From positions 1 to 5,836 of the forward strand of contig JALGVQ010000253.1 of assembly GCA_025774615.1 (NCBI GenBank): a stretch of DNA of 5,836 nt, given 5' to 3'. This DNA is from a bacterium (GTDB lineage Bacteria; Blakebacterota; Blakebacteria; Blakebacterales; Blakebacteraceae). Both the position numbers and the translations under genes were made by a program. Numbering within the stretch: position 1 is the first letter of the stretch; each line of letters opens with the position of its first letter. The notes under the pieces were generated by a model that made no database searches, had not been told where the DNA came from, and saw only the letters and a list, made by a program, of their open reading frames with translations. This document shows positions 1,110-5,825 of the stretch, piece by piece.

Positions 1110-2198
1110 TCAGCAGTTCCAGCGACCGGCTATCACCGCTCCACAGGCAGGGCATCGGTTCCCATCCAGGTGGTTGGCCCGGATCGTGAACCCCTGCCGT
1201 TCAATGAGGATCATGCCGCAGGAGGGGCAGAGTGTGTTCTCAGTACCCTCGACCCTTCCCGGCATGTTCCCCGCATATACGTGCCGCAGTCCCCGGGAGC
1301 GGCCGATCTCAGCGGCCCGGAGCAGTGTTGCGGCCGGGGTTGGCCCCGGCTTGTCCATACGGTATTCCGGACGATACGCGGTCACATGCCAGGGAATGTC
1401 CACTGAGATTCCCGCAATGAACGATGCGATATCGTTCAGTTCCCTGTCGGAGTCATTAAATCCGGGGATCAGCAGGGAGACGATCTCAACCCACTTATCC
1501 ATTCTCACCAGCGTACGGATCGTTTCCAGCACCGGTTCCAGTCTGCCTCCCAGTCCACGATACGTTTTATCGGAGAAGGACTTCAGGTCGACTTTGAAGA
1601 AGTCGATCCAGGGGTCCAGATAAGCGAGTACCTCCGGGGTAGCGTTCCCGTTGGAGACGAATGATGTAGCAAGTCCTGCTTTGCGGGCCAGTCTGAATAT
1701 CTCAACTGCCCACTCAACAGTGATGATCGGCTCATTGTATGTGCTGCAGATTGATTTCGCTCCGGCATCGAGGGCCTGGGCAACGATCTCTTTCGCAGAT
1801 ATCGTGCGAATGGACACACCCTTCACATCATCTCTGAGCGCCTGGCTGGTGACCCAGTTCTGACAGAATGAACAGTGATAGTCACAGCCGATCATGCCGA
1901 GTGAGAGCGCGAGCGAGCCGGGGAGGGTGTGGAAGAACGGCTTCTTCTCGACCGGGTCGGTCTGAAGGGAGGTGACATATCCTCTGGGGACCCGAAGAGA
2001 GCCCTGATCATTAAATCTGACTTTGCAGATCCCTGCAGCCCCGGGAGGGATCCGGCACCGGTGAGCACAGGCCAGGCAGGCGATCCGCCCGCCTTCCAGT
2101 GGTTCACTCAGCTCGCTTTCTGTGGTGAGGTTCCCGAGACGATCCCCGAGTGATTCTCCAGATTTCTCTTTTTGTGGTGAATGCTTTACAGGAATCAT
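1110..2198 (-). CDS. amrS: AmmeMemoRadiSam-system radical SAM protein (AmrS-like, PflA-related)
   Basis: Radical S-adenosylmethionine protein related to pyruvate formate-lyase activating enzymes. Numbered from the ATG at 2198 (362 residues), it shows: a Cys cluster CLACAHRC...C (C41, C44, C48, C58) typical of this family's N-terminus; the 4Fe-4S/SAM motif CDYHCSFC (C105, C109, C112); TYNEP (153-157), a PflA-type SAM-site motif; YAGNMPG (308-314); and a C-terminal zinc ribbon of two CxxC pairs (C324/C327, C349/C352). This order matches the family that co-occurs with AMMECR1 and Memo proteins, but neither partner is in the window. The reaction is unknown to me. The start is uncertain: an in-frame GTG at 2225 would add nine residues, neither start has a good SD, and the conserved part begins only about 35 residues after the ATG. 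It is divergent from the lipoprotein gene and upstream of pepD on the same strand. Confidence 0.92.
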   Translation of the reverse strand: MIPVKHSPQKEKSGESLGDRLGNLTTESELSEPLEGGRIACLACAHRCRIPPGAAGICKVRFNDQGSLRVPRGYVTSLQTDPVEKKPFFHTLPGSLALSLGMIGCDYHCSFCQNWVTSQALRDDVKGVSIRTISAKEIVAQALDAGAKSICSTYNEPIITVEWAVEIFRLARKAGLATSFVSNGNATPEVLAYLDPWIDFFKVDLKSFSDKTYRGLGGRLEPVLETIRTLVRMDKWVEIVSLLIPGFNDSDRELNDIASFIAGISVDIPWHVTAYRPEYRMDKPGPTPAATLLRAAEIGRSRGLRHVYAGNMPGRVEGTENTLCPSCGMILIERQGFTIRANHLDGNRCPACGAVIAGRWNC

Positions 2199-2288
2199 GG
2201 TGTTAACGAGTATAGAGAGGGGCACGTCCAGTTACCAGAGGTACCATTTGCCGGACAATACCGGATCACCAATCACATGCGTTGCCCC

Positions 2289-2328: not shown

Positions 2329-3441
2329 ATGCGCTCTCGATACAACCTGAGGACCGCAACAATCACCATTCTCGTTCTTGTGCTGATACTTGTGGGTTGC
2401 GATGCCATAAACCCCGACGACGATATCGGCTTTCAGACGACATCCCTCGTACCGGGCAGTCTGCTTTTTGCCGGCCACTCCGGCGTTTCGGGGAACACAA
2501 CGCTTGAACTGCGCGCCATCAATGTACAGACAACGAATCAAGTGCTTCTTGTGGGGTCGGGTGTTCACGATTACTCGAGTCCCGATATTGTTGACCGGGC
2601 CAATGGAACGTTCTTTATCGGATTCGGCAGAACGAATCTGAAGATCCTCGATACGTTCTTCTTCAAGGTCAAAAAGGTGAACGGGTTCGGCGCCCAGCAG
2701 CGTGCTCTCAATTTCAACCGGGAGGATCAGGAGAGTTTTACCTACATGGATGGCTCTCCCACCGCCGGTTTCGATATTATAGTTCAGAATGGGCTCGATG
2801 CCTCGCCTGTGGCAATCACCTCTGATGGCTCATCATCAATACAGAACTGGACACCCTGCTACTCACCCGACGCCCAATGGATTCTCTTCGCGAAGATTCC
2901 CGCGGGTGCCACATCGGGTTCAGGCTGCGAGCTGTGGCGGGTCCACCCTGACGGCACCGGGGCGGAAAAGCTCCCCATTACTACTGTTGAAGTGCCCACA
3001 TACGCGACCTGGAATCCTGACGGCACCGAGGTCTTCGTGCCTGGCGATTTCACCTCGTACCGGATCAGTGATGGCACGGTCGGGAAGATCGATCACGTAC
3101 GCGATCTGGACGAAGTAACCACCAAACTCGCCGTGTGGGGATATGAACTGGTCGGCAGTCCGTTGACCGGACCCACACATGAGGGGGACACAGTTTCCCA
3201 GGTCCGGCACACCTTCCCGATATCAGCGGTCTGGATGCCGGGTGACAAGCTCTATCTGGAAGCGCTGGTTGCGTATAATGACGGAATAACACCGGCACCT
3301 CATGCTGTTGCCGGCGTAGGTGTATTTGCCTGGTTGCGGGATGCCCAGGTGCTCCTGAAGAATATGAGTCCGGTCCCTGTATCGGCGACAAACTCCGAGG
3401 GCTACTCCTTGAGTATTCTGCACCCGACGATCATTCCCTGA
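2329..3441 (+). CDS. Putative lipoprotein with TolB/PD40-like beta-propeller motifs, function unknown
   Basis: 370-residue exported lipoprotein. Residues 1-23 form a signal peptide: basic N-region (R2, R4, R8), a hydrophobic stretch of I/L/V, and lipobox LVGC, with C24 predicted to be lipidated after signal peptidase II cleavage. Asp at +2 (D25) would favour inner-membrane retention by the E. coli Lol rule, which may not hold here. The middle resembles TolB/PD40 blades: TPCYSPDAQWILFAK (175-189), a CELWRVHPDGT segment (200-210) and ATWNPDGTEVFV (226-237). C177 and C200 could form a disulfide. The C-terminal 130 residues I do not recognise. The start at 2329 was chosen because it puts the signal peptide at the N-terminus; the same frame is open back to 2122, with an ATG at 2197 after AGGA, but that would place 44 polar residues before the signal. 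The gene is monocistronic by context, ending in a hairpin. A role in substrate binding or envelope assembly is only a guess. Confidence 0.8.
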   Translation: MRSRYNLRTATITILVLVLILVGCDAINPDDDIGFQTTSLVPGSLLFAGHSGVSGNTTLELRAINVQTTNQVLLVGSGVHDYSSPDIVDRANGTFFIGFGRTNLKILDTFFFKVKKVNGFGAQQRALNFNREDQESFTYMDGSPTAGFDIIVQNGLDASPVAITSDGSSSIQNWTPCYSPDAQWILFAKIPAGATSGSGCELWRVHPDGTGAEKLPITTVEVPTYATWNPDGTEVFVPGDFTSYRISDGTVGKIDHVRDLDEVTTKLAVWGYELVGSPLTGPTHEGDTVSQVRHTFPISAVWMPGDKLYLEALVAYNDGITPAPHAVAGVGVFAWLRDAQVLLKNMSPVPVSATNSEGYSLSILHPTIIP

Positions 3442-4837: not shown

Positions 4838-5080
4838 TGGGGGAGGGAGTGGGGGAAATGGCGGAAACCCGCCTGAATACTGATTATTCTGACGATTGAC
4901 TATATTGATGTCCAGAGAAGTGTAAGGAGGACCAGACGGTCCTGTTTCATTTTATCATGGACAGACTGTACAGAACTTTTTACTATCGCCGCTGCTTGAC
5001 CATGAAGCAAGAGCCGTTCGGAACTGAAGTACCCTAACACATGTTAATGAAATCTTACATAATCCGGCAGCTTTCATCGT
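4838..5080. other. Non-coding part of the divergent intergenic region
   Basis: I see no convincing gene here. It holds the right part of a G-rich run (to 4855), a consensus-like SD AAGGAGG (4924-4930) with no start codon at a usable distance, and an overlapping hairpin AGGACC/GGTCCT (4928-4933 and 4938-4943, AGAC loop) followed by the T-rich GTTTCATTTT. That resembles a weak plus-strand terminator or attenuator. A 26-codon reading frame at 4957-5037 has no usable SD. Confidence 0.4.
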
Positions 5081-5130
5081 AACTTGTTGATAAACAGTAA
5101 AATAGAAGTAGTAAATAATTACTTACAAAT
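5081..5130 (+). promoter_or_regulatory. AT-rich block, probable promoter region of the pseudopilin operon
   Basis: Only 10 of 50 bases are G or C, far below the flanking genes. It includes TTGATA (5087-5092), TAAAAT (5098-5103, 5 of 6 to a -10 box) and an imperfect 16-bp palindrome GTAAATAATTACTTAC (5111-5126). No -35/-10 pair has good spacing, so no exact promoter is claimed. A start site near 5110-5130 would make the downstream paired region the mRNA leader. Confidence 0.4.
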
Positions 5131-5224
5131 CGAAAGTGGTGTTGAATCAACACTCTCGAATCGTCTCTAATTCGTTGACAATCAACGAATTGTGACTGCT
5201 GAATCTGATTTGCGGTCAGAGACG
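5130..5224 (+). promoter_or_regulatory. Structured leader: hairpin plus three-way junction before the pseudopilin SD
   Basis: Hairpin I (5130-5159) has an apical dyad GTGTTGAATCAACAC (5139-5153) and a base of TCGA (5130-5133) paired with TCGA (5156-5159). Two bases later a junction begins. P1: CGTCTCT (5162-5168) with AGAGACG (5218-5224), 7 perfect pairs. P2: AATTCGTTGA (5169-5178) with TCAACGAATT (5182-5191), 10 perfect pairs, CAA loop. P3: GACTGC (5194-5199) with GCGGTC (5212-5217), 6 pairs including one G-U, extendable by four pairs past a bulged U5200 (one more G-U). P1 ends one base before the SD. It could act as a cis-regulatory RNA; the dyads could instead be DNA operators. It resembles no riboswitch class I know. 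Confidence 0.55.
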
Positions 5225-5225
5225 C

Positions 5226-5230
5226 GGAGG
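5226..5230 (+). promoter_or_regulatory. Shine-Dalgarno site fixing the pseudopilin start
   Basis: GGAGG, 4 nt before the ATG at 5235. It fixes this start over the in-frame ATG at 5262, which has no SD. It lies one base after the P1 stem of the leader structure, so folding could limit ribosome access. Confidence 0.8.
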
Positions 5231-5234
5231 CCAC

Positions 5235-5825
5235 ATGGTGTTAACCGTTATTAACAGATTCATGGCTGCCACTCGCGTGAGCAGTAACCGGTCAGGTTAT
5301 ACGATACTTGAGGTCCTCATTGTGATGAGTCTGGTGGGAGTGTTCATCGCCGCCACCATTCCCAACTTCAGCAAGATCATCCCCGAAATGAAGGTGGACA
5401 AGGCGGCCAGCAAACTGGCGTCCGATCTGCGCATGGCTCAGCAGCGGGCCATCTCGGAAATGGCGATCGTGCGTTTCAGGGCGGAAGTGGATAGTGAACG
5501 GTATTATGCCATGCTCAAGGCGCGCGATACGGGCGGACTCTGGTATCAGGATAATTATAGTGACTATGTAGAAGACCCACTGAATAGCGGCGCTATAGTA
5601 CTGATGGATTTCACCGACTCGAACAGCAAGTTCTACGGACTTGTGATACAGTCGATCGAGCCCCGGTTCGCCTATGGTGAGCAGTGGGGTTTCTATATCA
5701 GTCCTCTGGGTGACCTGCGCTGGCCCTTCGAGAATATAACCATCACCATTGCTGATCCGAAAACCGGTTATAGCCGCAGTGTGCAGATAACCTATCCGAT
5801 GGGAAAGGTTTCGGTTCTGCCGTGA
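5235..5825 (+). CDS. GspH/FimT-type pseudopilin (type II secretion or type IV pilus minor pilin)
   Basis: 196-residue prepilin-like protein. The leader (1-21) carries R8, R14 and R19 and ends in SG; prepilin peptidase should cut G21/Y22, leaving YTILEVLIVMSLVG with the invariant Glu at mature position 5 (E26). Tyr replaces the usual Phe or Met at +1. The hydrophobic helix runs to about residue 45, followed by the amphipathic segment AASKLASDLRMAQQRAIS (57-74), characteristic of GspH/FimT, and a beta-rich C-terminal domain with YISPLGDLRW (154-163) and a final PMGKVSV strand. The mature protein would sit in the inner membrane and join a pseudopilus or pilus tip. The 21-residue leader is at the long end for prepilins. 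It is the first gene after a 477-nt divergent region, with the next gene probably overlapping its stop, so it likely opens an operon. T2SS versus T4P use cannot be decided from this window. Confidence 0.9.
   Translation: MVLTVINRFMAATRVSSNRSGYTILEVLIVMSLVGVFIAATIPNFSKIIPEMKVDKAASKLASDLRMAQQRAISEMAIVRFRAEVDSERYYAMLKARDTGGLWYQDNYSDYVEDPLNSGAIVLMDFTDSNSKFYGLVIQSIEPRFAYGEQWGFYISPLGDLRWPFENITITIADPKTGYSRSVQITYPMGKVSVLP

Follow-up and report, generated by a model that had tools for sequence, protein, structure and literature searches.

A conserved hairpin or dyad and a neighboring, probable PilR-type palindrome at the head of a minor-pilin operon

Stem-loops of the ompA type in 5' leaders affect mRNA stability or ribosome loading, and in the classical layout of NtrC-type enhancers two tandem sites, spaced by about three helical turns, precede a sigma54 promoter. 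The window analyzed here (5,836 nt, an entire contig of the 3.3-Mb, 324-contig genome G000) contains a minor pseudopilin gene whose upstream region resembles these systems in part. Like the ompA-type leaders, it has a strong short hairpin (P2) in what is probably a leader, with no ligand core and with the Shine-Dalgarno sequence outside the hairpin; P2, unlike the ompA hairpin, is well removed from where the 5' end is predicted. With riboswitches such as the c-di-GMP GEMM and purine classes it shares a place in the leader of a surface-structure gene and, in the window, a compact junction, whereas it has no Rfam match, no conservation of the junction and no conserved unpaired core. The palindrome beside P2 is the same as the one that precedes the sigma54 promoter of pilC, as in PilR/NtrC-family enhancers, but at the pseudopilin locus it runs over the start codon, and the search there gave no convincing sigma54 promoter. 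The element is of an ordinary kind: a conserved hairpin or dyad of the leader, within the region that controls the minor-pilin operon. The features of this region are as follows (G001 is the relative used for comparison).

4958 to 4986, plus strand: probable sigma70-type promoter, TGGACA-17-TACTAT (TGGACA-17-TACAAT in G001)
5042 to 5059, plus strand: weaker, tentative PilR-type dyad, TGTTAATGAAATCTTACA, 10 of 12 dyad bases
5110 to 5127, plus strand: degenerate, tentative PilR-type dyad, AGTAAATAATTACTTACA, 8 of 12 (aligned G001 sequence TGTAAAGCATTGCTGACA, 9 of 12)
5162 to 5168, plus strand: 5' strand of P1, MFE pairing, window only
5168 to 5192, plus strand: P2, an 11-bp hairpin with a CAA triloop, 10 Watson-Crick pairs and U5168-G5192; the conserved core
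5193 to 5218, plus strand: P3 hairpin, MFE fold, window only; not conserved
5218 to 5224, plus strand: 3' strand of P1, window only, ending one base before the Shine-Dalgarno sequence
5226 to 5230, plus strand: Shine-Dalgarno sequence, GGAGG (GGAG in G001)
5238 to 5825, plus strand: minor pseudopilin gene (GspH/FimT-like), with a conserved GTG start at 5238
5239 to 5256, plus strand: 18-bp palindrome TGTTAA-N6-TTAACA overlapping the GTG start, a probable PilR-type (NtrC-family) site

The comparison set comprised the four genomes available for the family; the phylum likewise returned four. G001, a sediment metagenome-assembled genome (Meg22_46_Bin_213) of the same genus as G000, carries an orthologous pseudopilin gene (protein identity 66-67%) that adjoins the same M20 peptidase gene as in the window and is followed in its operon by further pilin-like genes. 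The Meg22 core comes from Guaymas Basin (PMC10290634). Searching genome_contigs with the pseudopilin alignment returned the G001 locus again and no other, and the same search of viral_contigs found none; G003 keeps the neighboring M20 peptidase gene with no pilin beside it, so no third orthologue was found, and the leader comparison rests on two sequences, the window and G001. The identification of the gene as a pseudopilin, made earlier from the sequence, was borne out by matches to N_methyl (PF07963, E 1.9e-5) and to GspH (TIGR01708, E 2e-9, under the cut-off of that model). Because G001 has ATA at the position of the window's ATG at 5235 and both sequences share the GTG, the GTG at 5238, seven bases past GGAGG, is probably the true start, and the annotatable ATG 5235 is not. 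Elsewhere in the window, a radical SAM protein with a zinc-ribbon-like C-terminal end is encoded between two M20-type peptidase genes (1110-2225, minus strand), and a predicted lipoprotein with an LVGCDA lipobox-like start (2330-3441) has no Pfam match; a similar protein is found at the same place in G001 (L012:2448-3602).

The first-pass annotation had drawn the 63 nt from 5162 to 5224 as a three-way junction of P1, P2 and P3, and its bases and coordinates are correct: the P2 arms (5169-5178/5182-5191) are perfectly complementary, GGAGG lies where it was placed, and P1 closes one base before it. The MFE fold of the segment has the drawn shape at −25.9 kcal/mol, compared with −12.2 kcal/mol for shuffled sequences (z −5.0; 0 of 200 shuffles as good), in agreement with the claim that the fold exceeds chance. 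The helices differ in detail from those described. P1 can pair over the 7 bp proposed (5162-5168/5218-5224), but in the MFE fold it has 6 bp, U5168 being paired with G5192, and this same pair extends P2 from 10 bp, all of which are present, to 11 bp. P3 is predicted with 7 bp (5193-5199/5212-5218) in place of 6, and the 4 bp proposed beyond its bulged U are open. In the wider context of 5120-5240 (121 nt) the energy signal falls to z −2.95, with 1 of 200 shuffles as good. When P2 was held fixed and its flanks were shuffled, the exact cut of 5162-5224, which had been picked because it folds well, gave p 0.002, whereas wider cuts gave p values of 0.058, 0.072, 0.03, 0.014 and 0.044. The fold-energy signal of the region thus comes mostly from P2, and the fold outside P2 is modestly better than chance.

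The relative separates the three helices. Five of the six P3 pairs are broken in G001 and one is kept (58% of cells paired), P1 retains four of its seven pairs with two broken and one gapped, and the MFE fold of G001 has no junction. The first-pass annotation had named relatives showing no compensatory substitutions as able to refute the junction, and it falls on that comparison because G001 lacks most of the P3 pairs and has a compensatory change in neither P1 nor P3. P1 and P3 are, on this alignment, particular to the window sequence and no part of a conserved junction. The earlier proposal that the whole 63-nt fold is a new cis-regulatory RNA, a riboswitch or protein-binding leader controlling pseudopilin translation, drew on the fold energy and on the closing of P1 one base before the Shine-Dalgarno sequence; the GACG before the Shine-Dalgarno sequence is also predicted to be paired in both species, with different and non-homologous partners, which is weak evidence at best. 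Besides the loss of P3 and the reduction of P1 to four pairs, this proposal is opposed by p values of 0.01-0.07 for the remainder of the fold in wider cuts with P2 fixed and by the search for a second copy, which found none in the four genomes. Control of translation likewise found no support, the Shine-Dalgarno sequence lying outside the fold and being predicted as free in G001 (pair probability 0.00-0.05). The statement that the element fits no known riboswitch does hold, as cmscan with all 4227 Rfam families placed nothing on the region at E values up to 5. We consider a junction RNA very improbable, and the comparison with G001 has largely refuted it already.

P2 behaves differently. The hairpin reads TAATTCGTTGACAATCAACGAATTG in the window and TAATCCATTGATAATCAATGGATTA in G001, so that AATTCGTTGA-CAA-TCAACGAATT has become AATCCATTGA-TAA-TCAATGGATT. 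Two of the ten pairs are altered on both sides (T-A to C-G and G-C to A-T, both double compensatory), the outer U-G has become U-A, and the one remaining change is in the loop; pairing is thus 100% in both species and all 11 pairs are kept in G001, with 20 of 25 bases identical. The compensatory changes that had been suggested as a check are therefore present in P2, in two pairs and in the two sequences of the window and its only relative with the locus. RNAalifold windows that hold the whole of P2 scored z −3.7 to −6.9 against column shuffles (in 60-column windows, 0 of 100 shuffles as good and z about −6.9 at best), whereas no leader stretch without P2 fell below z −2.4. In the fold of the whole leader of both species, the inner pairs of P2 have probabilities of 0.93-1.0, the outermost 0.60 and 0.85, and the loop-closing pair 0.76. 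By simulation, all ten pairs survive in 0.06% of cases at 45% divergence and in 3.4% at 20%, and given two changes per arm the pairing survives by chance in 3.7% of cases. We conclude that the P2 hairpin is real and is conserved with matched changes in the only close relative, and, since P1 and P3 are lost there, that the hairpin is supported and the junction is not. Matched changes would also arise in a functionless chance palindrome if one arm served as the template for replication errors in the other (quasi-palindrome correction), and templated changes of this sort are known in general. However, eight pairs are unchanged and the 20 identical bases stand in a leader that is otherwise poorly conserved, which suggests selection; we regard a functionless palindrome as quite improbable.

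The surroundings of P2 bear on whether it is transcribed. The best conserved intergenic block in the alignment with G001 (4939-4997) contains the sigma70-like promoter, and it is followed by the poorly conserved leader, by P2, and then by GACGCGGAG with the Shine-Dalgarno sequence. Because it lies downstream of this conserved promoter-like block, P2 is probably part of the mRNA. Transcription of the minor-pilin operon would start at about 4993 and give a 5' leader of about 245 nt, with P2 about 45 nt before the GTG start. In that position P2 would most likely serve as a simple leader element that blocks nucleases or holds the upstream leader away from the ribosome site, with which it might otherwise pair, thereby helping to set the level or the translation of the mRNA. 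P2 is not a dispersed repeat of the REP or MITE-like kind, as both DNA matching and a covariance model (its P2 part) found one copy in the genome. Nor does it look like an intrinsic terminator or attenuator: the terminator scan did not list it, and it is followed by GTGACTGC, with no U-run. A background count over 225 kb gave six perfect 10-bp hairpins lacking a T-run, so such hairpins are scarce. Our best explanation, held with about even confidence, is that the mRNA of the minor-pilin operon carries P2 as a conserved stem-loop in its 5' leader; the covariation, the unbroken stem and the probable leader position favor it. Against it, G002 has a similar dyad in a spacer, ahead of a sigma54 promoter, where a DNA site would fit better, and the pseudopilin locus holds other DNA palindromes.

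The clearest of these palindromes, TGTTAA-N6-TTAACA at the start codon, is a stronger signal than the adjacent P2. All 12 of its dyad bases are kept in G001 with a changed center. Exact matches number two in G000, two in G001 and one in G002, compared with one, zero and zero for the reversed-pattern controls, and elsewhere the exact palindrome occurs only in the pilR-pilC spacers of the three genomes (L031:5487-5504, L033:1377-1394 and L024:2245-2262). The gene adjoining the pilC spacer encodes an NtrC-type regulator with Response_reg, Sigma54_activat and HTH_8 domains (receiver, sigma54-activation and Fis-type HTH), and a conserved sigma54 promoter, TGGCATG-N3-TTTGC, lies upstream of pilC in all three (L031:5362-5377, L033:1252-1267 and L024:2117-2132, minus strand). 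The spacer palindrome is 119.5, 119.5 and 122.5 bp upstream of this promoter, and a second, weaker copy is found 31 bp further upstream (11 of 12 dyad bases in G001 and G002, 10 of 12 in G000). Because the sites stand in tandem at the pilC sigma54 promoter, in the NtrC layout, and rpoN is present in all four genomes, the palindrome at 5239-5256 is probably a PilR-type enhancer or binding site, and the minor-pilin operon probably belongs to the predicted PilR regulon. No sigma54 promoter scoring 9 or more was found in the window, and the best candidate with both core dinucleotides (5416, score 7) is inside the gene. Because no good sigma54 promoter was found nearby, the palindrome may repress from where it sits on the start codon, or may exert its effect from a distance. 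We dropped the idea that it forms an RNA hairpin over the start codon, as the same site occurs far upstream of pilC, above its promoter; a pilC match in G003 (37% identity) was at the level of a paralogue and was left out. Within the pilR-pilC spacer, the stretch that separates the PilR-type site from the sigma54 promoter also carries hairpins, of 13 bp in G001 (with two G-U pairs), about 11 bp in G002 and weaker in G000.

These spacers bring in the serious rival to an RNA hairpin, namely that P2 works as double-stranded DNA: a dimeric transcription factor acting on pilin operons would bind its 25-bp dyad (half-site AATTCRTTGA) as an operator beside the PilR-type site, and the hairpin would be a by-product of the symmetry. 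A search of the four genomes with the P2 consensus, allowing up to three mismatches, found a single additional site, TAATTCATTGCCATTCAATGATTTA, which lies close to the TGTTAA palindrome in the pilR-pilC spacer of G002, and the reversed-pattern controls gave none. The identity of eight of the ten pairs between G000 and G001 would also fit a DNA site. However, the P2 sequence is absent from the pilC spacers of G000 and G001, where in G001 the 13-bp hairpin stands at the place of the P2-like dyad of G002. Furthermore, the half-sites have changed in step twice, which is not required of a DNA site, and T-G, the outermost combination in the window, does not pair in DNA. Relaxing the P2 motif gave more matches than the reversed-pattern control, but these were mostly within coding frames, and we claim no regulon from them. 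An operator is a serious possibility, though on the two sequences compared less likely than the RNA hairpin. The two readings could also be combined, with the P2 dyad and the TGTTAA palindrome forming a two-part control module common to the minor-pilin and pilC-pilin operons, in which one sequence would be both the DNA site of a second pilus regulator and a leader RNA hairpin; this we think unlikely. One orthologous pair among the relaxed-motif matches, dyads of the form CGTTG-N5-CAACG that share their core and spacing with the window's P2, is located close to where a TetR-type regulator gene begins in G000 and in G001 (L073:1501-1520 and L078:1501-1520).

Literature searches turned up, among the titles listed, neither a comparable RNA element nor a comparable PilR palindrome. 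Dropping the three-way junction averts a false riboswitch lead. For this lineage, represented here by four genomes, the analysis places a conserved, probably transcribed leader hairpin and a likely PilR-type site among the control elements of type IV pilus genes; by itself the hairpin is ordinary, and the PilR-type palindrome over the start codon is worth a specialist's attention.
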